From Jiella sonneratiae (GTDB lineage: Bacteria > Pseudomonadota > Alphaproteobacteria > Rhizobiales > Rhizobiaceae): a DNA stretch of 64,000 nucleotides. The notes beneath the pieces are model-generated. The model worked only from the letters and a program-made list of their open reading frames with translations. It ran no database searches and was not told where the DNA came from. The stretch covers positions 62,001-126,000 of the forward strand of contig NZ_JAFMPY010000013.1 in the NCBI RefSeq assembly GCF_017353515.1, read 5' to 3'. Positions 5,950 through 15,406 of the stretch are shown here, piece after piece (position 1 is the stretch's first letter; every line of letters starts with the position of its first letter). The position numbers and the translations under genes are program-made.

Positions 5950-6219
5950 ATGTCGATCACCGCAGAGCGCAAGGCTGCGCTGCTGAAGGAATATGCGACC
6001 AAGGAAGGCGACACCGGGTCGCCCGAGGTGCAGGTCGCGCTCCTCACCGAGCGCATCAACAACCTCACCGAGCACTTCAAGGGCCACAAGAAGGACAATC
6101 ACTCGCGCCGGGGCCTTCTGAAGATGGTCTCCCAGCGCCGGCGCCTTCTCGACTATCTGAGGGGCTGCGAGGAAAGCCGCTACCAGACGCTGATCGAGCG
6201 TCTCGGCCTGCGTCGCTAA
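5950..6219 (+). CDS. rpsO: 30S ribosomal protein S15
   Basis: An 89-residue protein with the full S15 pattern: [60 protein letters not shown] and a C-terminal [10 protein letters not shown]15 binds 16S rRNA early in 30S platform assembly. Length equals the family norm. It is followed by pnp in the same direction, the order conserved widely in bacteria. Confidence 0.97.
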
Positions 6220-6227
6220 AACACCTT

Positions 6228-6264
6228 CCGGCGGGCCCCGAACGCAGCTTCGCGGGCCCGCCGG
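6228..6264 (+). promoter_or_regulatory. strong hairpin in the rpsO-pnp leader
   Basis: An 11-bp perfect inverted repeat (CCGGCGGGCCC at 6228-6238, GGGCCCGCCGG at 6254-6264) lies directly after rpsO and about 250 bp before pnp. In Escherichia coli the pnp leader forms a hairpin cut by RNase III that is the basis of PNPase autocontrol. By position this hairpin could play that part or attenuate rpsO read-through. There is no clean T run after it. The role is inference. Confidence 0.5.
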
Positions 6265-6514
6265 CCTTTGCCGGCCGCGACGCGCGGCCGTCGCCTGACC
6301 CCCGAACGGGCCCTGCCCGCGAAGGACCACCGAACGGTCATGGGGCAGGATTGCCGGATGCTTCCGGGCAGGCCGAAAACGGCCGATCGCTTCCTCGACG
6401 AAGCGCCGCACGAAGCCTCTCGCCGTCTTGCCCATGGCGCGTTTCGACCAAAACAGAACGCCAAAGCGCCGCACCGGGATCTCCCGGCTGCGACGCCGAA
6501 CGAAAGGCAAGAGA

Positions 6515-8647
6515 ATGTTCAACACCCACAAGGTGGAAATCGACTGGGCGGGACGCCCGCTCACCCTCGAGACCGGCAAGATCGCCCGTCAGGCCGACGG
6601 CGCCGTGCTTGCGACCTACGGCGAGACGGCGGTTCTCGCGACGGTGGTCTCCGAGAAGCAGCCGAAGGTCGGCTTCGACTTCTTCCCCCTCACCGTCAAC
6701 TACCAGGAAAAGACCTTCGCGGCCGGCAAGATCCCCGGCGGCTACTTCAAGCGCGAGGGCCGGCCGAGCGAGAAGGAGACCCTCGTCTCCCGCCTCATCG
6801 ACCGTCCGATCCGCCCGCTCTTCGCCGACGGCTACAAGAATGACACCCAGGTCGTCTGCACCGTGCTGCAGCACGACCTCGAGAACGATCCCGACGTCGT
6901 CGCGATGGTCGCCGCCTCCGCCGCGCTGACGCTCTCCGGCGTTCCCTTCATGGGCCCGATCGGCGCTGCCCGCGTCGGCTATATCGGCGGCGAGTACAAG
7001 CTCAACCCGCATGTCGACGAGATGCCGGAATCGGCCCTCGACCTCGTCGTCGCCGGCACCGACGCCGCCGTGCTGATGGTGGAATCGGAGGCCCAGGAGC
7101 TTTCCGAGGACGTCATGCTCGGCGCCGTGATGCACGGCCACCGCGGCTTCCAGCCGGTGATCGACGCAATCATCAAGCTCGCCGAAGTCGCCGCCAAGGA
7201 GCCGCGCGAGCACGTCACGCCGGATCATTCGGCGCTCGAGGGCGAGATGCTGCAGATTGCCGAAAGCGAGCTGCGCGAGGCCTACAGGAACACCGACAAG
7301 CAGGCGCGCTATGCCGCCGTCGACGCGGTGAAGAAGAAGGTCGTCGCGAACTTCCTGCCCGAGGGCGCGGAAGAGACCCGCTACTCCAAGGAAGAGGTCG
7401 GCGCGGTCTTCAAGTCGCTGCAGGCGAAGATCGTCCGCTGGAACATCCTCGACACCTCCTCGCGCATCGACGGCCGCTCGCTCGACACCGTCCGCCCGAT
7501 CGTCTCGGAGGTCGGCGTCCTGCCGCGCACCCACGGCTCGGCGCTGTTCACCAGAGGCGAGACGCAGGCGCTGGTCGTCGCGACGCTCGGCACCGGCGAG
7601 GACGAGCAGTTCGTCGACGCCCTGACCGGCACCTACAAGGAGCGCTTCCTGCTCCACTATAATTTCCCGCCCTACAGTGTCGGCGAGACCGGCCGCATGG
7701 GCTCGCCCGGCCGCCGCGAGATCGGCCATGGCAAACTGGCGTGGCGGGCGATCCACCCGATGCTGCCGGGCGCCGACCAGTTCCCCTACACGCTGCGCGT
7801 CGTCTCCGAGATCACCGAATCGAACGGTTCCAGTTCGATGGCGACGGTCTGCGGCACCTCGCTGGCGCTGATGGATGCGGGCGTGCCGCTGAAGGCGCCG
7901 GTCGCCGGCATCGCCATGGGTCTGATCAAGGAAGGCGAGCGCTTCGCCGTCCTCTCCGACATTCTCGGCGACGAGGACCATCTCGGCGACATGGACTTCA
8001 AGGTCGCGGGCACGAGCCAGGGCGTCACCTCGCTGCAGATGGACATCAAGATCGACGGCATCACCGAGGAGATCATGAAGATCGCCCTCGGCCAGGCCAA
8101 GGGCGGCCGCGACCACATCCTCGGCGAAATGGCCAAGGCGATCTCCGAGGGCCGCGCCGAACTCGGCGAGTTCGCCCCGCGCATCGAGGTGATGAACATC
8201 CCGACCGACAAGATCCGCGACGTGATCGGCTCGGGCGGCAAGGTGATCCGCGAGATCGTCGAGAAGACCGGCGCCAAGATCAACATCGAGGACGACGGCA
8301 CGATCAAGATCGCGTCGGCCTCGGGCAAGGAGATCGAGGCCGCCAAGAAGTGGATCCACTCGATCGTCGCCGAGCCGGAAGTCGGCGAGATCTACGAGGG
8401 CACGGTCGTGAAAACGGTGGAGTTCGGCGCCTTCGTCAACTTCTTCGGCTCGCGCGACGGCCTCGTCCACATCTCCCAACTCGGCGCAGGCCGCGTCGCC
8501 AAGACGACGGACGTCGTCAAGGAAGGCGACAAGGTCTGGGTCAAGCTCATGGGCTTCGACGAGCGCGGCAAAGTGCGGCTCTCGATGAAGGTCGTCGACC
8601 AGACGACGGGCGAAGAGCTCAAGAAGGGCGCCGAGGAAGAGGCGTAA
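6515..8647 (+). CDS. pnp: polyribonucleotide nucleotidyltransferase (PNPase)
   Basis: A 710-residue protein, normal length for PNPase, which degrades RNA 3' to 5' using phosphate and belongs to the RNA degradosome. Two RNase PH cores are visible: the first from [14 protein letters not shown], with [11 protein letters not shown] and [12 protein letters not shown]; the second around [10 protein letters not shown] and [10 protein letters not shown]. Then come a KH domain with IGSGGKVI and a C-terminal S1 domain ([18 protein letters not shown]). The ATG at 6515 gives the standard N-terminus. A hairpin terminator follows at 8691-8720. Confidence 0.97.
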
Positions 8648-8690
8648 GCTTCACGGTGCTTTCGGGGCGGAAGCCCCACCGGACATGATG

Positions 8691-8720
8691 CGCGCGCTCG
8701 GGGAAACCCGGGCGCGTTTT
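8691..8720 (+). terminator. rho-independent terminator of pnp
   Basis: A 10-bp stem (CGCGCTCGGG at 8693-8702 with CCCGGGCGCG at 8707-8716, one G-T pair) closes a GAAA tetraloop and is followed by TTTT. It begins about 45 bp after the pnp stop codon. Confidence 0.85.
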
Positions 8721-8812
8721 GGTATCTGCGAAGATCATATTGGTCGAAGATCGATTTGCCTAAATCGGACATCCATGTTTTCATCGGGTGGTTGTGGTAC
8801 CGAGGAATTGCA

Positions 8813-9559
8813 GTGAACAGGATTCTGATCGCAGCCGTTTTAGCCGCAGTGTGGATGCAGCGTTCATTTGCAGCCGAATTGAGCCTTTCCACCGGAGAAG
8901 GTCCTGGAGGTCAAGCTACCAGAATCTTGCGCATCGCTGGGGACATCACGGAAGGCGACAGCCAGAAGGTCGCTGCTCGACTTGACCAACCGCGTGACAA
9001 AGACAGCGAAAGATCGGCCGTTGATCAGGTAACTTTGGCGGGTGAGGGTGGAGATTTTTTAGAAGCAGTGAAGATCGCTCGGCTGATCGGCCAATCCGAG
9101 GTATCGACTGCCGTGTTAGCTGGAGATACGTGTTCAGATGCCTGTGCGGTCGCGTTCATGGCTGGCAACATGGGCAATTTCAACGAGACCACCGTCCGGG
9201 CCTCGGCAAGATGCCTGCAAGAAGGCGGCGTCCTGGAGTTTTCGATCCCCACATTCGCGCAAGTGCGAACCATAAATCCGTTGGAGGACCGCAATGCCGA
9301 ACTCGCGCGGGTCGCGCGCCGTCAGATGTTTCTTTTTTTTGTTGATCTGATCACCCTGACGAGAGAGCACGAGTGGCCGGAGCAGCTAGTTCAGGCCGTA
9401 CTTGAGGCCGGAATCTCTGGAAGAACGATTGTGCGGGCGGATTATGACCCTCTCCATCTACTACGAGAAGGAAGCCCGGATGATTATTATGGCATCGTCG
9501 CCCATGCGGAGCGCAGTATAGATTTGGGGCGACCTTGTCCTTTTGTTGTGACAAATTGA
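8813..9559 (+). CDS. ClpP-fold periplasmic protein, apparently catalytically inactive
   Basis: A 248-residue protein with a signal peptide (cleavage after RSFAA, about residue 21) and a ClpP/crotonase-like domain of the COG3904 type. The domain aligns with that of the next gene: GEGGDFLEAVKIARLI (about 77-92) matches SPGGNLVEGIALANLV there, and CSDACAVAFMAGN (about 107-119) matches CVSACALVFMAGT. The expected nucleophile serine is Asp109 and the expected histidine is Ser144, so peptidase chemistry is unlikely. GTG at 8813 is chosen as start because GAGGAATTG precedes it and the signal peptide begins there. Codon use is clearly less GC-rich than in pnp, suggesting acquisition. It lies 24 bp before its paralogue and is probably cotranscribed with it. 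Confidence 0.72.
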   Translation: MNRILIAAVLAAVWMQRSFAAELSLSTGEGPGGQATRILRIAGDITEGDSQKVAARLDQPRDKDSERSAVDQVTLAGEGGDFLEAVKIARLIGQSEVSTAVLAGDTCSDACAVAFMAGNMGNFNETTVRASARCLQEGGVLEFSIPTFAQVRTINPLEDRNAELARVARRQMFLFFVDLITLTREHEWPEQLVQAVLEAGISGRTIVRADYDPLHLLREGSPDDYYGIVAHAERSIDLGRPCPFVVTN

Positions 9560-9583
9560 TTATTTAGCCTATCCGAGACTATT

Positions 9584-11221
9584 ATGAAAAAATTGTCCTC
9601 ATTTTTGACATTATTTTTCGTCTGCACGTTTGCAGACTTTACGACAGCAGCCGAGGTCTTGACGCAGTCTGCTGCCCAGATCTCCGACCGTTGTGGCGCA
9701 GAACGGACGATTTTGCTGCACGGCCAAATCGATAAGGGGGACGTCGAAAGACTGAGAGCGGCCCTCGGACCAAAGCTGAGCGAGGCTCCAACAAGCGACT
9801 TTCGAGGTTCTCAGGCGCGTTTGGTTTTGGACAGCCCCGGAGGAAACCTCGTCGAAGGAATAGCTCTGGCGAACCTCGTCCGAGATGCTGCCCTCCGAAC
9901 CTATGTCAGGAGCAACGCTCAGTGCGTTTCGGCGTGCGCGCTCGTTTTCATGGCAGGTACATCCATTGGAGCGAACGGCAAGCGCTTCTCGATCCGGGAG
10001 ATCGAGCCCGGCGCAAAACTGGCATTCCACGCCCCTGACTTACCAGAAGAAATGCTTCGCGACATTGCGCCAGACGATCGGGTCGCGGCGCGGGCCATCG
10101 AGGAGGCAATGTTCCAGGCAGCGCGCGGCTTCGTCAATTTGCTGCATGATCACAATTGGGCGCAATCATTGACGGAGTTTACCCTTGAGGCCGTCGACAA
10201 AGGGGAATTCGTTGAGGTAAAAACCGTTGATCAAGCAGGTAGGTGGCGCATCGGGATTGCTGGATCTCGCCGCTTACGCATTGAGCCAAATCTGCGCGAT
10301 GAAAGTTATTATGCGGCAGATGCAGGTTCGCCGCTGGGCCTGCATAGCTTTTGCGTCAATTCTGAAGAGTGGGCAAAAGATCAGTTCGCATTTCCTGTGT
10401 TGGACACCCCCTCTCCCTTGGCGGCGAACATTCAAGATCGGTCGATCTTAAGTCGCCCAATTATTGCTTATACGAGGGCGAGGCGATACCGGGAGCACCT
10501 CTTCTCGCACGAGACGATCGGCGGGTATGAGTCGTATTGCGTCGTGTCTACGGATCAAAGCGGCCGCATCTATTCAGCATTCTGGCCAGGCGACCTGACG
10601 GTCCGATCGGGGCTGCCGAACATCGATAATCAGGGCGTCGCTCTGATCCCTGTCGACCGAATTCGTGCATGGCAGGCTCTTCCGCCAGATACACCTATCA
10701 CCCGTATCGACGAGTCCCTTGCCGATACCGGAATTTTTCGCAGCGTTGGTCCAGAGCAGGATGTCGAGCCGTTTGTCGTCGAGTCACAGACGACCAATTG
10801 GAACCATAACGGCTCGAAGATGGAGCTCAGGGTCGAAAAGCTCGATACCGGGCAGACCGATGTGACGATCAGCTACTCGCAGCCGAGAGAGTCGCTCCTG
10901 AAGTACGGCATCGAGCCTAAGCAATTGCTTTTCAAGGGACAATTGGTCGAAGGATCGCTGAGCGGCCGAGCCTTTGTCTTCCGTCGAGGTTGCGACCCCA
11001 TCCCCTATGGCGTCACCGGCCGCTTCGATCCATCGCAAAGCGCGTTTCGCCTGACGGGAGCCGCCCCCGATCAGACCGGCGATCGCTGCCAGCCCGAAGG
11101 GAAAACCTTCGATAGCAGCGCGGCTGCGCTCGTATTCGATCATGACGGCATTGCCGAATACGAACGCGACGTCCAGACCAAGAAGATCGTTCTCGCCTGT
11201 CCTGCCGCTCCCAGCGACTGA
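9584..11221 (+). CDS. ClpP-fold periplasmic protein with intact Ser-His motif
   Basis: A 545-residue protein with a signal peptide (MKKLSSFLTLFFVCTF, cleavage near TTAA). Residues about 40-210 form a ClpP/SDH-like domain of the COG3904 group: LVLDSPGGNLVEG (about 80-92) supplies the oxyanion loop, CVSACALVFMAGT carries the candidate nucleophile Ser116 between Cys114 and Cys118, and AFHAP carries the candidate His149. The C-terminal 300 residues have no domain I recognise and include several cysteines that could form disulfides. It follows the inactive-looking paralogue, and both are less GC-rich than their flanks. A periplasmic proteolytic role is inference from fold and motifs; the substrate is unknown. 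Confidence 0.72.
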   Translation: MKKLSSFLTLFFVCTFADFTTAAEVLTQSAAQISDRCGAERTILLHGQIDKGDVERLRAALGPKLSEAPTSDFRGSQARLVLDSPGGNLVEGIALANLVRDAALRTYVRSNAQCVSACALVFMAGTSIGANGKRFSIREIEPGAKLAFHAPDLPEEMLRDIAPDDRVAARAIEEAMFQAARGFVNLLHDHNWAQSLTEFTLEAVDKGEFVEVKTVDQAGRWRIGIAGSRRLRIEPNLRDESYYAADAGSPLGLHSFCVNSEEWAKDQFAFPVLDTPSPLAANIQDRSILSRPIIAYTRARRYREHLFSHETIGGYESYCVVSTDQSGRIYSAFWPGDLTVRSGLPNIDNQGVALIPVDRIRAWQALPPDTPITRIDESLADTGIFRSVGPEQDVEPFVVESQTTNWNHNGSKMELRVEKLDTGQTDVTISYSQPRESLLKYGIEPKQLLFKGQLVEGSLSGRAFVFRRGCDPIPYGVTGRFDPSQSAFRLTGAAPDQTGDRCQPEGKTFDSSAAALVFDHDGIAEYERDVQTKKIVLACPAAPSD

Positions 11222-11357
11222 TCACAACTGTTCGCACCGCAGCATCCTGCCTTTTCCACCTCGGCGCCGAATGCTATGGCCCGTGGATCATGCAGTACCG
11301 GGATCTATGTCTTTAAGAGACCGCCCGGAAACCCTTTCTTTCCGAAAGCCCCTCCCC

Positions 11358-12527
11358 ATGCTCGACCTCTCCCGCCTGCGACGCGAAGCCGTGGAGGCGC
11401 CTGAAAGCGGTATTGTTGCCGTCGTCAACCACGCCCGCGGCAGGGAGGGGATCATCCCGATGTGGGCCGGCGAGGGCGACCTCGCGACGCCGCGCTTCAT
11501 CGCCGAGGCCGCGGCGGCGAGCCTTGCCGAGGGCGAGACCTTCTACACCTTCCAGCGCGGCCTGCCGGAGCTGCGCGTCGCGCTCAGCCAGTACACCAGC
11601 CGGCTCTACGGCCAGAACCTCGAGCCCGAGCGCTTCTTCGTCACCGGCTCGGGGATGCACGCGATCCAGCTCGCGCTGATGGCGCTCGCCGGCAGCGGCG
11701 ACGAGGTGGTGTTCGTCGGCCCGGCCTGGCCGAATTTTTCCGCCGCCGCCGGGCTGATGGGCGCGATGCCCCGCGAGGTCAGCCTCGACTGCGTCGCCGG
11801 CCGCTGGCAGCTCGATCTGGGCAAGCTGAAGAGCGCGATTACCGACAAGACCCGCGTCCTCTTCGTCAACTCCCCCTCGAACCCGACCGGCTGGACCGCG
11901 ACCCGCGAGGAGCTTGCCGCGATCCTTGCCGTCGCGCGCGAGGCCGGCATCGTCGTCATCGCCGACGAGATCTATGCGCGGTTCTATTACGAGGGCCCGC
12001 GCGCGCCCTCCTTCCACGACGTCATGGCCGCCCACGACGCCATCGTCTTCGTCAATTCCTTCTCGAAGAACTGGGCGATGACCGGCTGGCGGGTCGGCTG
12101 GATCGAGACCAGCCCGGCGCTCGGCCAGATCATCGAGAACCTCATCCAGTATTCCAATTCCGGCGTCGCGGCTTTCATGCAGCGGGGTGCGATCGCCGCG
12201 CTGACCCATGGCGAGGAATTCGTCGAGAACCAGATCGCCCGCGCCGAGACCGCCCGCGACATCTTCTGCGACATCCTGACGGCGACCAACCGCGTCGAAC
12301 TCGCCCCGCCCGACGGCGCCTTCTACGCCTTCTTCAAGATCGACGGCATCGGCGACACCAGGGCGGCGGCCTTCAGGATCGTCGACGAGGCGAAGGTCGC
12401 GATCGCGCCGGGCACGGCCTTCGGGCCGGCGGGCGCGCCGTTCTTCCGGGCCTGCTTCCACCGCCGGCTCGACGAGGTCGAGGCGGCCGCCCATCGCCTA
12501 GCGGAGTGGATCGGATACCAGGTGTGA
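11358..12527 (+). CDS. PLP-dependent aminotransferase, class I/II
   Basis: A 389-residue aspartate-aminotransferase-like enzyme. Marks in order: GEGDLATP near the N-terminus, TGSGMHAIQLALMAL, NSPSNPTGWTA, IADEIYARFYYEG and NSFSKNWAMTGWRVGW with the PLP lysine, ending with a proper C-terminal small domain. The amino-group donor and acceptor cannot be assigned from sequence. The ATG at 11358 gives the usual start; an in-frame ATG at 11307 would add 17 residues and cannot be excluded. The downstream AbrB-type membrane gene begins 2 bp after the stop, so the two are likely cotranscribed. Confidence 0.85.
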   Translation: MLDLSRLRREAVEAPESGIVAVVNHARGREGIIPMWAGEGDLATPRFIAEAAAASLAEGETFYTFQRGLPELRVALSQYTSRLYGQNLEPERFFVTGSGMHAIQLALMALAGSGDEVVFVGPAWPNFSAAAGLMGAMPREVSLDCVAGRWQLDLGKLKSAITDKTRVLFVNSPSNPTGWTATREELAAILAVAREAGIVVIADEIYARFYYEGPRAPSFHDVMAAHDAIVFVNSFSKNWAMTGWRVGWIETSPALGQIIENLIQYSNSGVAAFMQRGAIAALTHGEEFVENQIARAETARDIFCDILTATNRVELAPPDGAFYAFFKIDGIGDTRAAAFRIVDEAKVAIAPGTAFGPAGAPFFRACFHRRLDEVEAAAHRLAEWIGYQV

Positions 12528-12529
12528 GC

Positions 12530-13651
12530 ATGGGCCACCGGGCGGCGCGGGGCCGCCTGCGGGACCTTGCCGTCACCGGGGCGGCGGCGCTTTCCGCCGG
12601 CGCCGTCGCCAGTTCTTTCGGCCTGCCGGTCGCCTGGCTGCTCGGCCCGGTCGTCGCCGCGACGGCGCTCAGCCTCGCCGGGCTCGACACGCGGCTGCCG
12701 GACCGGCTGAAGACCCTCGCCTTCTACGTGCTCGGCGTCCAGGCCGGGTCCGGCGTCTCGCCCGAGATCGCCACCCAGTTCGCGGTCTGGCCGCTCTCCT
12801 TCGTCATCCAGCTTTTCGGCGTCCTCTTCGCCGTCGCCCTGTGTTACGGCTTCCTGCGGCGGATGCTCGGCTGGGACCATGCGACCGCGCTCTTCGCCTC
12901 GCTGCCCGGCGCGCTGTCCTTCGTCGTCGCGGCGGCCTCCGAGACGAAGGCGGACATGGGCCGGGTGGTGATCATCCAGTCGATCCGTCTCCTGATGCTG
13001 ATCGCCGCCCTGGTGCCGCTGCTCGGCGCGCTGGAAGGCGGCGGGGCGATGGGTCCGGCGCTGCGGCCGGCCGGCGACGGCGGGGTGTTCGCCTATGCGC
13101 TGATGTTCGGCCTTTCCGCCGCCACCGCCTGGCTCGCCGCAAGGCTCAACGTTCCCGGCGGCATGATGCTCGGCGCGCTGATCGGCAGCGCCGTTCTGCA
13201 CGGCGCCGACGTCGTCGCGGTCTCGCTGCCCTGGTGGCTCGCCCTGCCGAGCCTCGTGCTTCTCGGGATCATCGTCGGCGGCCGGCTGAACGGCATCTCG
13301 GTCTCCGCCTTCCTGCGGCTGCTCGCGCCTTCGCTCGGCTGCTTCGCGCTCGGCCTTCTCGGCACCGGGCTTGCCGGCGTCGCCGCCGTCGTCTTCGTCG
13401 ACCTGCCGGCGCCGAACGTCGCCCTCGCCTATGCGCCGGGCGCGCTCGAGGCGCTGACGGTGCTCGCCTTCCAGTTCGACATCGATCCGGCCTATGTCGC
13501 CTCCCATCACGTCGTGCGCTTCTTCGCCATCGCGCTGATCGTGCCCTTCCTCGCGCGGCGGGTCTCGCGGCGCGAGGCCGTCACGGAAAGGGCCGAGGAC
13601 GGGACGGCGGCCGCGCCGGCGCCCGGCGAATGGGATCGAGAAAGCGCGTGA
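12530..13651 (+). CDS. AbrB family membrane protein
   Basis: A 373-residue integral membrane protein with about ten hydrophobic segments arranged as two similar halves, each holding a GLP- or NVP-containing start (SSFGLPVAWLLGPVV; ARLNVPGGMMLGALIG). That duplicated unit is the AbrB/AmoA membrane family (COG3180), of unproven transport or regulatory function despite its name. Its start overlaps or nearly abuts the aminotransferase stop: GTG at 12524 overlaps it and ATG at 12530 follows by 2 bp. The coupling suggests a common transcript. Confidence 0.82.
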   Translation: MGHRAARGRLRDLAVTGAAALSAGAVASSFGLPVAWLLGPVVAATALSLAGLDTRLPDRLKTLAFYVLGVQAGSGVSPEIATQFAVWPLSFVIQLFGVLFAVALCYGFLRRMLGWDHATALFASLPGALSFVVAAASETKADMGRVVIIQSIRLLMLIAALVPLLGALEGGGAMGPALRPAGDGGVFAYALMFGLSAATAWLAARLNVPGGMMLGALIGSAVLHGADVVAVSLPWWLALPSLVLLGIIVGGRLNGISVSAFLRLLAPSLGCFALGLLGTGLAGVAAVVFVDLPAPNVALAYAPGALEALTVLAFQFDIDPAYVASHHVVRFFAIALIVPFLARRVSRREAVTERAEDGTAAAPAPGEWDRESA

Positions 13652-13664
13652 CGGCGCGGCGGGG

Positions 13665-14042
13665 TCAGGCGTCGATGGCGGCGAAGACCGACGGGCTCGG
13701 CGCTTCCGCCTCGCCGCCTTCCGGGCCCCACGAGACCACCCAGGCGGCGAAGTCGTCGCTCATCTCGGCGAAACGGAACGCCTCGCCCGCCTCGACCAGC
13801 AGCGCGTCGCCGGCGCCGACGGCCCCCGTCCCGTCGCCGGAGAGCGTCGCCGCGCGGCCGCTCGCGACGACGAACAGCCGGTCCTGATGATAGGGATCCT
13901 GGGCGTCCTCGCCGCGCGGGGCGTGGACTTCGAGGGTCATGGTGCCGTGGGCGAAGGCCTCAGCGGCAAACCTGCCGCCGGGAAAGGCCGTGCTGGCAGG
14001 GCCGGGCAGCTTCGACAGGAGGGAGGCGAGCGAAACCTTCAT
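13665..14042 (-). CDS. small cupin-domain protein
   Basis: A 125-residue single-domain cupin: APRGEDAQDPYHQDRLFVVASG forms the first conserved strand pair and GAGDALLVEAGEAFRF the second. The metal-ligand pattern is incomplete (one clear His), so metal binding is uncertain. Such small cupins store or sense small molecules or act as isomerases; nothing here picks between these. It lies downstream of hemA on the same strand, separated by 83 bp. Confidence 0.75.
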   Translation of the reverse strand: MKVSLASLLSKLPGPASTAFPGGRFAAEAFAHGTMTLEVHAPRGEDAQDPYHQDRLFVVASGRAATLSGDGTGAVGAGDALLVEAGEAFRFAEMSDDFAAWVVSWGPEGGEAEAPSPSVFAAIDA

Positions 14043-14125
14043 CGGGCAGGTCCTTGCGATCGTCGGGACCCGCCCCGTCGTCGTGCCGGCGGCACCGGCC
14101 GAGCCGGGGCCGCGACGGCCGCGAT

Positions 14126-15406
14126 TCAGCCGCCGGCTTGCGAGACGACCAGCGGGGTCACCTTCTCCGAACGCTCGGGGCTCGCCGGGCGTTCCGCGGC
14201 GAAGGGAATGCCGACGGCCTGCCAGGTCTCGACCAGCGCGTCGCGCAGCGCCTCGATCAGCCGGTCGTCGTGCAGCGGCGTCGGGGTGATGCGCAGGCGC
14301 TCGGTGCCGCGCGGCACCGTCGGATAGTTGATCGGCTGGATGTAGATGCCGTGCTTGGCCAGCAGCCGGTCGCTCGCCTGCTTGCAGAGGTCCGGGTCGC
14401 CGACCAGCACGGGGACGATGTGCGTCTCGGACGGCATCACCGGCAGACCCGCCTCGGCGAACACCGCCTTCGCCCGCCCCGCCTGAAGCTGCTGGCCGGC
14501 GCGCTCCGACTGCGAGTGCTTCAGATGGCGGATCGAGGCGGTGGCGGCGGCGGCGAGCGCCGGCGGCAGCGCGGTGGTGAAGATGAAACCCGGCGCATAG
14601 GAGCGGACCGCGTCGATCAGCGCCTTCGACCCGGTGATGTAGCCGCCGAGGACACCGAAGGCCTTGGCCAGCGTTCCCTCGATGACGTCGATGCGGCCGG
14701 CGACGCCCTCACGCTCGGAGATGCCGCCGCCGCGCGCGCCGTACATGCCGACGGCATGGACCTCGTCGATATAGGTCATGGCGTTGTAGGTCTCGGCGAG
14801 GTCGCAGATCGCGGCGATCGGCGCGACGTCCCCGTCCATCGAATAGACGCTCTCGAAGACGATCAGCTTCGGCCGGTCGGGCTCGGCGGCGGCGAGCAGT
14901 TCCTCGAGATGGGCGAGGTCGTTGTGGCGGAACACCTGCTTGCGGGCGCCGGACTTCCTCACCCCCTCGATCATCGAGGCATGGTTGAGCTCGTCGGAAA
15001 GGATCAGGCAGTTCGGCAGAAGCTTGGCGATGGTCGAGATCGACGCCTCGTTGGAAACGAAGCCCGAGGTGAAGACCAGCGCCGCTTCCTTGCCGTGCAG
15101 ATCGGCGAGTTCCAGCTCGAGCTCGACCAGCGGATGGTTGGTGCCGGAGATGTTGCGGGTGCCGCCGGCGCCCGAGCCCATGCTCTGCGCCGTCTTCGCC
15201 ATCGCCCCGACGACGTCGGGATGCTGGCCCATGCCGAGATAGTCGTTCGAGCACCAGACGGTGATCTCCCGCGCCTCGCCCTGGTGCCGCCAGATCGCCT
15301 TCGGAAACTCTCCCGCGATACGCTCCAGATCGGCGAACACCCGATAGCGCCGCTCGGCGTGAAGGGCTTCGATCGCCGAGGCGAAATGGCGCTGGTAGTC
15401 AATCAT
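14126..15406 (-). CDS. hemA: 5-aminolevulinate synthase
   Basis: A 426-residue enzyme condensing glycine and succinyl-CoA to 5-aminolevulinate, the C4 entry to haem synthesis typical of alphaproteobacteria. Visible are MIDYQRHF at the N-terminus, [47 protein letters not shown] and [14 protein letters not shown] with the PLP lysine. The C-terminus has normal length. The next gene upstream (15669-15875) lies on the same strand, and an FNR/FixK-like palindrome lies about 170 bp upstream of the start, fitting oxygen-linked control of haem synthesis known in relatives. Confidence 0.96.

Follow-up and report, generated by a model that had tools for sequence, protein, structure and literature searches.

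The 64,000-nucleotide stretch of Jiella sonneratiae DNA analysed here (the window) carries two adjacent genes, P1 (8813-9559, +) and P2 (9584-11221, +), which lie downstream of pnp and on the same strand. Together they are an accessory unit, probably an acquired one, and both are proposed to encode exported ClpP-fold proteins of a family named here C-x-S-x-C for the two Cys that lie around its nucleophile. While P2 is probably a serine peptidase, an activity suggested by its sequence, P1 belongs to the same family and has lost the SPGG loop along with the Ser and His, retaining the fold (as predicted) and the Cys pair around the nucleophile position. Such dead-beside-live ClpP-fold pairs are found among exported-looking proteins in several lineages, which suggests that the dead copy serves as a partner. 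For P1 and P2 themselves, the chances are about even that P1 is a pseudoprotease partner of P2 in the periplasm, in contact with it as ClpR is with ClpP.

The catalytic motif distinguishes the two proteins. In P2 (545 aa), the SPGG loop (S84-P-G-G87, 9833..9844, +) is followed by C114-V-S116-A-C118 (9923..9937, +), with Ser116 at the nucleophile position and a Cys on each side, and by F148-H149-A-P (10025..10036, +), which supplies the catalytic-type His149. An earlier reading of this DNA made from the letters alone (the sequence-only reading) had aligned these residues with GEGG, Asp109 and Ser144 of P1, and the alignment holds as it was stated. P1 (248 aa, read from a GTG start after GAGGAA) has G77-E-G-G80 at the SPGG position (9041..9052, +, by sequence alignment), Asp109, encoded by GAT, in the place of the nucleophile within C107-S-D109-A-C111 with both flanking Cys retained (9131..9145, +), and Ser144 where the catalytic His would be expected, in F143-S144-I-P (9239..9250, +). 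Judged by the three features of a catalytic member (Ser, His and SPGG), P2 has all and P1 none. Both frames are open, and the spacing of 24 bases from the end of the P1 stop codon (9559) to the P2 ATG (9584) is verified from the coordinates. The N-termini of P1 (VNRILIAAVLAAVWMQRSFA, 8813..8872, +, modelled with low confidence at residues 1-18) and P2 (9584..9649, +) resemble Sec signal peptides when judged by eye, as had been claimed.

P1 is recognised by a C-x-S-x-C family profile at E 6.6e-22. Its seeds were 48 domain segments that all bear the Ser, P1 not being one of them, and Ser-less members are therefore under-detected by it. P2 scores E 9e-38 against the same profile and is probably among its seeds, as its motif fits the seed rule. 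The general profiles respond faintly. Pfam CLP_protease matches P2 at 21.1 bits, just above its cut-off of 20.2, and a Pfam search with P1 gave nothing at E 1. Against the NCBIfam models TIGR00493 and NF001368 for the ATP-dependent Clp proteolytic subunit, P2 reaches 14.4 of 308.6 and 15.6 of 249 bits, respectively, and P1 has no match; against NF045542 (phage head maturation protease, cut-off 120 bits), P2 reaches 27 bits and P1 12.1. A ClpP fold for P2 is thus suggested by sequence, with CLP_protease barely above its cut-off. In the low-confidence model of P2, no Foldseek match had E <0.001, and the list was set aside as meaningless. For P1, the predicted model is of moderate quality (predicted local distance difference test score, pLDDT, 62.9; predicted template modelling score, pTM, 0.67; from four sequences) and bears out the expectation of a ClpP-like fold. 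ClpP is the best Foldseek match (E 4e-5), with MenB-type crotonases in the list too, and VIA-align, which re-examined Foldseek's own matches only, aligns 168 residues of the model with ClpP at Z 13.3 and a root-mean-square deviation of 3.2 Å, a stronger figure than the TM-scores. A profile of the 15 family members of this genome, compared with solved structures, finds Sel1/TPR proteins and also ClpP, at E 2e-4 to 9e-4. The description of P1 as an inactive-looking paralogue beside an active-looking P2 is supported, and the family profile match and the orthologous pair in a second species described below, with the two substitutions repeated, make it more than a chance finding.

The C-x-S-x-C family and its serine-less members

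Thirteen further ORFs (open reading frames) of the 5.15 Mb J. sonneratiae genome match the family profile, which gives 15 members with P1 and P2. Their accessory domains include Sel1 repeats (four members) and PAN, bacterial SH3, peptidoglycan-binding and YceG domains (one member each), and because of these domains a cell-envelope setting appears probable for the family. In one of these paralogues (L051 1601-3406, G000:C8), the ClpP-like domain is combined with a Sel1 repeat and, at residues 362-591, with a YceG (MltG-type) region (E 1e-57). No functional study of the family was found in the open literature searched, most subscription papers lying outside that search.

The family was read more widely at 370 loci, which hold 234 distinct ORFs. 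These loci were chosen as the best matches to alignments of P1, P2 or the dead copies, or as regions in which two matches lie near each other, and are thus a non-random sample. The nucleophile position is Ser in 227 ORFs, Asp in four, Leu in two and Gly in one, while Cys occupies both the -2 and +2 positions in 233 of 234, including P1, P2 and all seven that lack the Ser. The single exception (L031) has AASMG, as in classical or phage ClpP, and is counted in the 234 without being a true C-x-S-x-C protein. The cysteines are therefore better kept than the Ser (233/234 vs. 227/234), and the Cys pair at the active-site helix may be a structural disulfide or a redox switch. The sequence-only reading had made the inactivity of P1 depend on homologues that do not commonly keep the Ser and His. 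At the level of the family this fails, as Ser is the rule; for P1 proper it stands, as the sole ortholog found does not keep them.

The seven Ser-less members are the two Jiella P1s, one gene each in genomes G021, G477 and G647, and two lone genes in G454. Among the Jiella loci read, the two P1s are the only ones. The residues that replace the catalytic ones differ. Both P1s have Asp at the nucleophile position and Ser at that of the His, and the G021 copy has Asp and Arg, the SPGG being lost in all three. In the dead copies of G477 and G647, which belong to one genus, Leu stands at the nucleophile position and the His is lost. In G454, of the same genus, one gene has Gly with Thr for the His, and the other has Asp with the His lost (the aligned residue is Gly). 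One G454 gene (L293 3614-4486) reads C-F-D-A-C, keeps its SPGG and groups with the live genes of G477 and G647 (support 95/86); here the live lineage itself may have lost the Ser.

Five of these seven (both P1s and the copies in G021, G477 and G647) have a same-strand, Ser-bearing family gene within 400 bp. A same-strand family neighbour at this distance is seen for only 9 of 211 Ser-bearing ORFs, of which five are the partners of the dead copies and the other four make up two live/live tandems, in G450 and G332. These counts cover the 218 ORFs flanked on each side by 400 bp or more, the remaining 16 of 234 being left out for a shorter flank, and the corresponding Fisher test (p 1e-5) is a guide only, since the sample is biased and the partners are not independent. 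The pairs of G477 and G647 were picked by score alone, before their neighbours were known. Counted by genus, there are three tandem cases (Jiella, that of G021, and that of G477 and G647) vs. one genome with lone dead genes; among the loci read, the dead copy was seen in one of four genomes in the genus of G021, and the tandem in two of three in that of G477. Because five of the seven Ser-less members adjoin a Ser-bearing one, a partner role for the dead copy is favoured, in line with the partner suggested in the sequence-only reading; as such, P1 might be a regulator, a scaffold or an inhibitor.

Two further observations concern the composition of these pairs. The G021 dead protein (L319 4573-6261), encoded downstream of its live neighbour, ends in a C-terminal WD40 propeller. 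Directly after the live/dead pair, both G477 and G647 encode a small protein of ~230 residues that looks exported and is similar in the two genomes (L317 8913-9599 and L318 2897-3619).

Origins of the dead copies and the constraint on them

In a tree built with the active-site columns removed, the dead copy of G021 and the live gene beside it form a group (98/80). The Jiella P1s belong to a weakly supported group of eight (88/52), together with the P2s, one G048 protein and a three-member clade that holds another paralogue from the J. sonneratiae genome, and the dead copies of G477 and G647 sit elsewhere, apart from their live neighbours. The approximately unbiased (AU) test, applied to groups chosen after the first tree had been seen, disfavours a single clade of the P1s with the G021 copy (p-AU 0.021) and one of the P1s with the G477 and G647 copies (p-AU 0.012). 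The dead copies thus appear to have more than one origin, a single origin of the Jiella ones with those of G021 or of G477 and G647 being disfavoured.

Between G477 and G647, nonsynonymous over synonymous change (dN/dS, by NG86 here and for P1 and P2 below) is 0.202/0.757 for the dead gene and 0.199/0.741 for the live one, or about 0.27 each; constraint is thus equal on the two genes, and the dead one is under purifying selection. In G477, the ATG taken for the dead gene falls inside the end of the live gene, so that the frames overlap. The GC content of the G477 pair (0.72/0.71) is close to that of its locus (0.70), and that of the G021 pair (0.42/0.42) is slightly below that of its own (0.445).

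In J. endophytica, an orthologous pair occupies the same site between pnp and an aminotransferase gene, with Asp and Ser again in the two catalytic positions of P1. The two P1 proteins are 41% identical; both are intact, and the Asp, the Ser, the cysteines and the C-terminal residues are conserved between them. For P1, dN is 0.66 and dS about 4, and because synonymous change is saturated only a rough statement on the constraint acting on the Jiella pair is possible. A scan of named genomes for P2 with two short peptide patterns returned J. endophytica (CBS5Q-3) alone, and a tblastn search of plasmids gave 15 records, none with 80% coverage of P2 and all below 60% identity. The expectation that the two genes would always be adjacent in relatives is borne out where P1 was found (with P2 beside it in two of two cases), while the pair is not widespread, being present in 2 of 10 genomes of Jiella (Hyphomicrobiales, Aurantimonadaceae).

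The base composition had been described as unlike that of pnp and the following genes, and it is: the GC content at third codon positions (GC3) is 0.55 for P1 and 0.63 for P2, vs. 0.93 for both pnp and the aminotransferase gene of the window. In J. endophytica the values are 0.66 and 0.65, vs. 0.93 for pnp. Overall GC is 0.55 for P1 and 0.57 for P2, vs. 0.65-0.70 in seven other family members measured in the same genome. The interval between pnp and the aminotransferase gene (8648-11357 of the window) looks variable across Jiella. In six other genomes (L245, L246, L249-L252), no more than 1.5 kb separates the end of pnp from the aminotransferase gene downstream, and in G003 the two flank an ORF of oxidoreductase type on the other strand (Pyr_redox_2, E 7e-12; L313 6372-8831). 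In G005, a 10-kb stretch surrounding the aminotransferase gene was read and contained no pnp.

The long C-terminal part of P2 had been said to contain no known domain. Neither Pfam nor NCBIfam gives a match in this part, in agreement with that reading, and yet residues ~404-520 (10793..11143, +) are a mobile domain that recurs in other genomes, standing alone or ending other proteins (L003, L026, L027, L028, L045, L093). The domain is marked by W-x-H-N-G-S and a conserved Cys and is mostly strands in the weak predicted model (pLDDT 34 overall). Six such proteins have no Pfam match at E 0.1, and four have no NCBIfam match above cut-off. Upstream of P1, in the interval following pnp, a stem-loop at 8692..8717 (+) resembles a terminator (an 11-pair stem with nine GC pairs and a T-containing tail); it is a consensus match only, the region holding four such sites vs. 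2.7 (sd 1.8) in shuffles.

Possible roles of P1 and known ClpP systems

If P1 is a partner of P2, it would enter mixed oligomers with P2 through ClpP-type subunit contacts, and in such oligomers it would control assembly, access or substrate choice outside the cytoplasm. By analogy with the mixed live/dead cores of cyanobacteria and plastids, the leading reading is that P1 assembles with P2, at about even odds. A more general proposal, which we regard as tentative and rather doubtful, is that an extracytoplasmic counterpart of ClpP/ClpR exists, in which live/dead pairs arose several times, mixed oligomers provide a recurrent, ATP-free form of control, and the Cys pair could link the active-site helix to the redox state of the envelope.

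Several observations weigh against the partnership of P1 and P2. The model of P2 reaches only pLDDT 34, from a two-sequence alignment. In P2, no third catalytic residue has been assigned, and for P1 the Foldseek TM-scores are low (query-normalised 0.28-0.47 among the 50 matches listed). The trees neither support P1 and P2 as sisters (88/52 for the wider group) nor reject that grouping (p-AU 0.40). The two Ser-less G454 genes have no adjoining family gene, and the gene order varies, the dead gene being first in Jiella and second in G021, G477 and G647. The live/live tandems of G450 and G332 are joined by looser pairs in G494 and G384, with gaps of ~700 bp; as Ser-bearing tandem pairs exist, adjacency by itself does not mean regulation. 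Finally, presence in only 2 of 10 Jiella genomes indicates that the pair is not a core machine, and it diverges fast, with dN between the two Jiella of 0.66 for P1 and 0.45 for P2, at saturated dS, compared with 0.045 for pnp.

Some of these points would be accommodated if P1 were a dead paralogue with a binding job of its own, such as a decoy or sensor of envelope peptides, that makes no contact with P2 and lies beside it as a remnant of duplication and shared control. The WD40 propeller of the G021 copy is a binding module, that copy looks like a local duplicate, the two G454 members stand alone and P1 is not clearly sister to P2. However, adjacency to a live member recurs in separate lineages, and leftover duplication poorly explains G477 and G647, where the dead copy is not sister to the adjoining live gene; an independent role is thus a serious explanation and still an improbable one. 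Less probable again, and in our estimate unlikely, is that the two genes are cargo carried by a variable site between pnp and the aminotransferase gene. They might, for instance, form a defence or conflict module of the envelope, in which P2 is the attacker and P1 either holds P2 back or labels the target. Cargo would agree with the low GC3 of the pair in both species, its occurrence in 2 of 10 genomes and its very fast divergence relative to pnp, and also with the short distance from pnp to the aminotransferase gene in six other Jiella and the unrelated oxidoreductase-type ORF that separates them in G003, whereas the G477 pair shares the GC content of its locus and the G021 pair nearly does. 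PADLOC gives no convincing match either (none for P1; P2 best at E 0.033, 11.3 bits), and a known anti-phage system was rejected on this ground.

It is very unlikely that P1 is a different enzyme, with Asp109 and Ser144 forming a new active site on a ClpP/crotonase fold. The crotonase superfamily uses acidic residues, and Asp occurs at the nucleophile position in three separate parts of the tree (Jiella, G021 and one G454 gene). Asp is nevertheless a plain helix-capping substitute for Ser, and the rest of the supposed site is not shared: the His position holds Ser in Jiella, Arg in G021 and, by alignment, Gly in G454, the SPGG is lost in Jiella and G021, and other dead copies have Leu or Gly at the nucleophile position. 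Least credible of all is that P1 is decaying and will eventually be lost. The lost motif, the low GC and an identity of only 41% to the ortholog would fit decay, but P1 is intact in two species that conserve its Asp, Ser, cysteines and C-terminal residues, and its synonymous change (saturated) lies far above its amino-acid change; a decaying pseudogene was accordingly rejected.

The pseudoprotease partner proposed here has its closest likeness in the Clp systems of cyanobacteria and plastids. The cyanobacterial ClpP3/ClpR ring contains three ClpP3 and four ClpR (PMC4673316), plastid Clp cores include four inactive ClpR proteins (PMC7966870), and in one plastid Clp subunit the catalytic site is dispensable while the structural contribution is not (PMC6508832). 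In these systems and in the apicoplast ClpPR, as in the pair proposed here, an active ClpP-fold subunit is matched with a related one that lacks the triad (PMC4673316, PMC7966870, PMC6508832). The known systems are cytoplasmic or organellar and form ClpP-type rings (14-mers in cyanobacteria and plastids) that work with ClpC/ClpX-type unfoldases. In contrast, P1 and P2 have signal-peptide-like N-termini, a Cys pair at the nucleophile, a long tail on P2 and no recognised unfoldase gene beside them; none was seen by eye among the ORFs of 6000-14500, the stretch to which the search for an AAA+ unfoldase was confined, so that an exported one elsewhere in the genome would have escaped it. The ClpP1/ClpP2 of Listeria and mycobacteria likewise comprise two distinct ClpP paralogues, both of which enter one core (PMC4673316). 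However, both subunits are active in the mixed complex of Listeria, while P1 lacks the Ser, the His and the SPGG.

P2 also has weak profile similarity to the ClpP-like head maturation proteases of phages (27 bits for NF045542; PHROG head maturation families from E 3e-4, and one 'protease' family at 7e-5). The score lies far under the NCBIfam cut-off, the N-termini are signal-peptide-like and no phage genes were recognised adjacent to the pair. A phage origin was rejected, the PHROG and NCBIfam matches being weak. The nearest relatives are the exported ClpP-like proteins of Alphaproteobacteria, which share the pattern SPGG ... C-x-S-x-C ... G-[FV]-H and include the 13 other ORFs of this genome; P1 differs from them in lacking the SPGG, the Ser and the His. 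These are presumably the proteins of COG3904, a 'predicted periplasmic protein'. The pair offers a small, two-gene test case for a family that, by the present reading, has 15 members in the genome of the window alone. The active/inactive ClpP pairs known so far operate in the cytoplasm and in plastids, around a chamber fed by an ATP-driven unfoldase, and if the repeated origin of such pairs among exported proteins is true, dead ClpP-fold subunits would be useful without an unfoldase machine as well.

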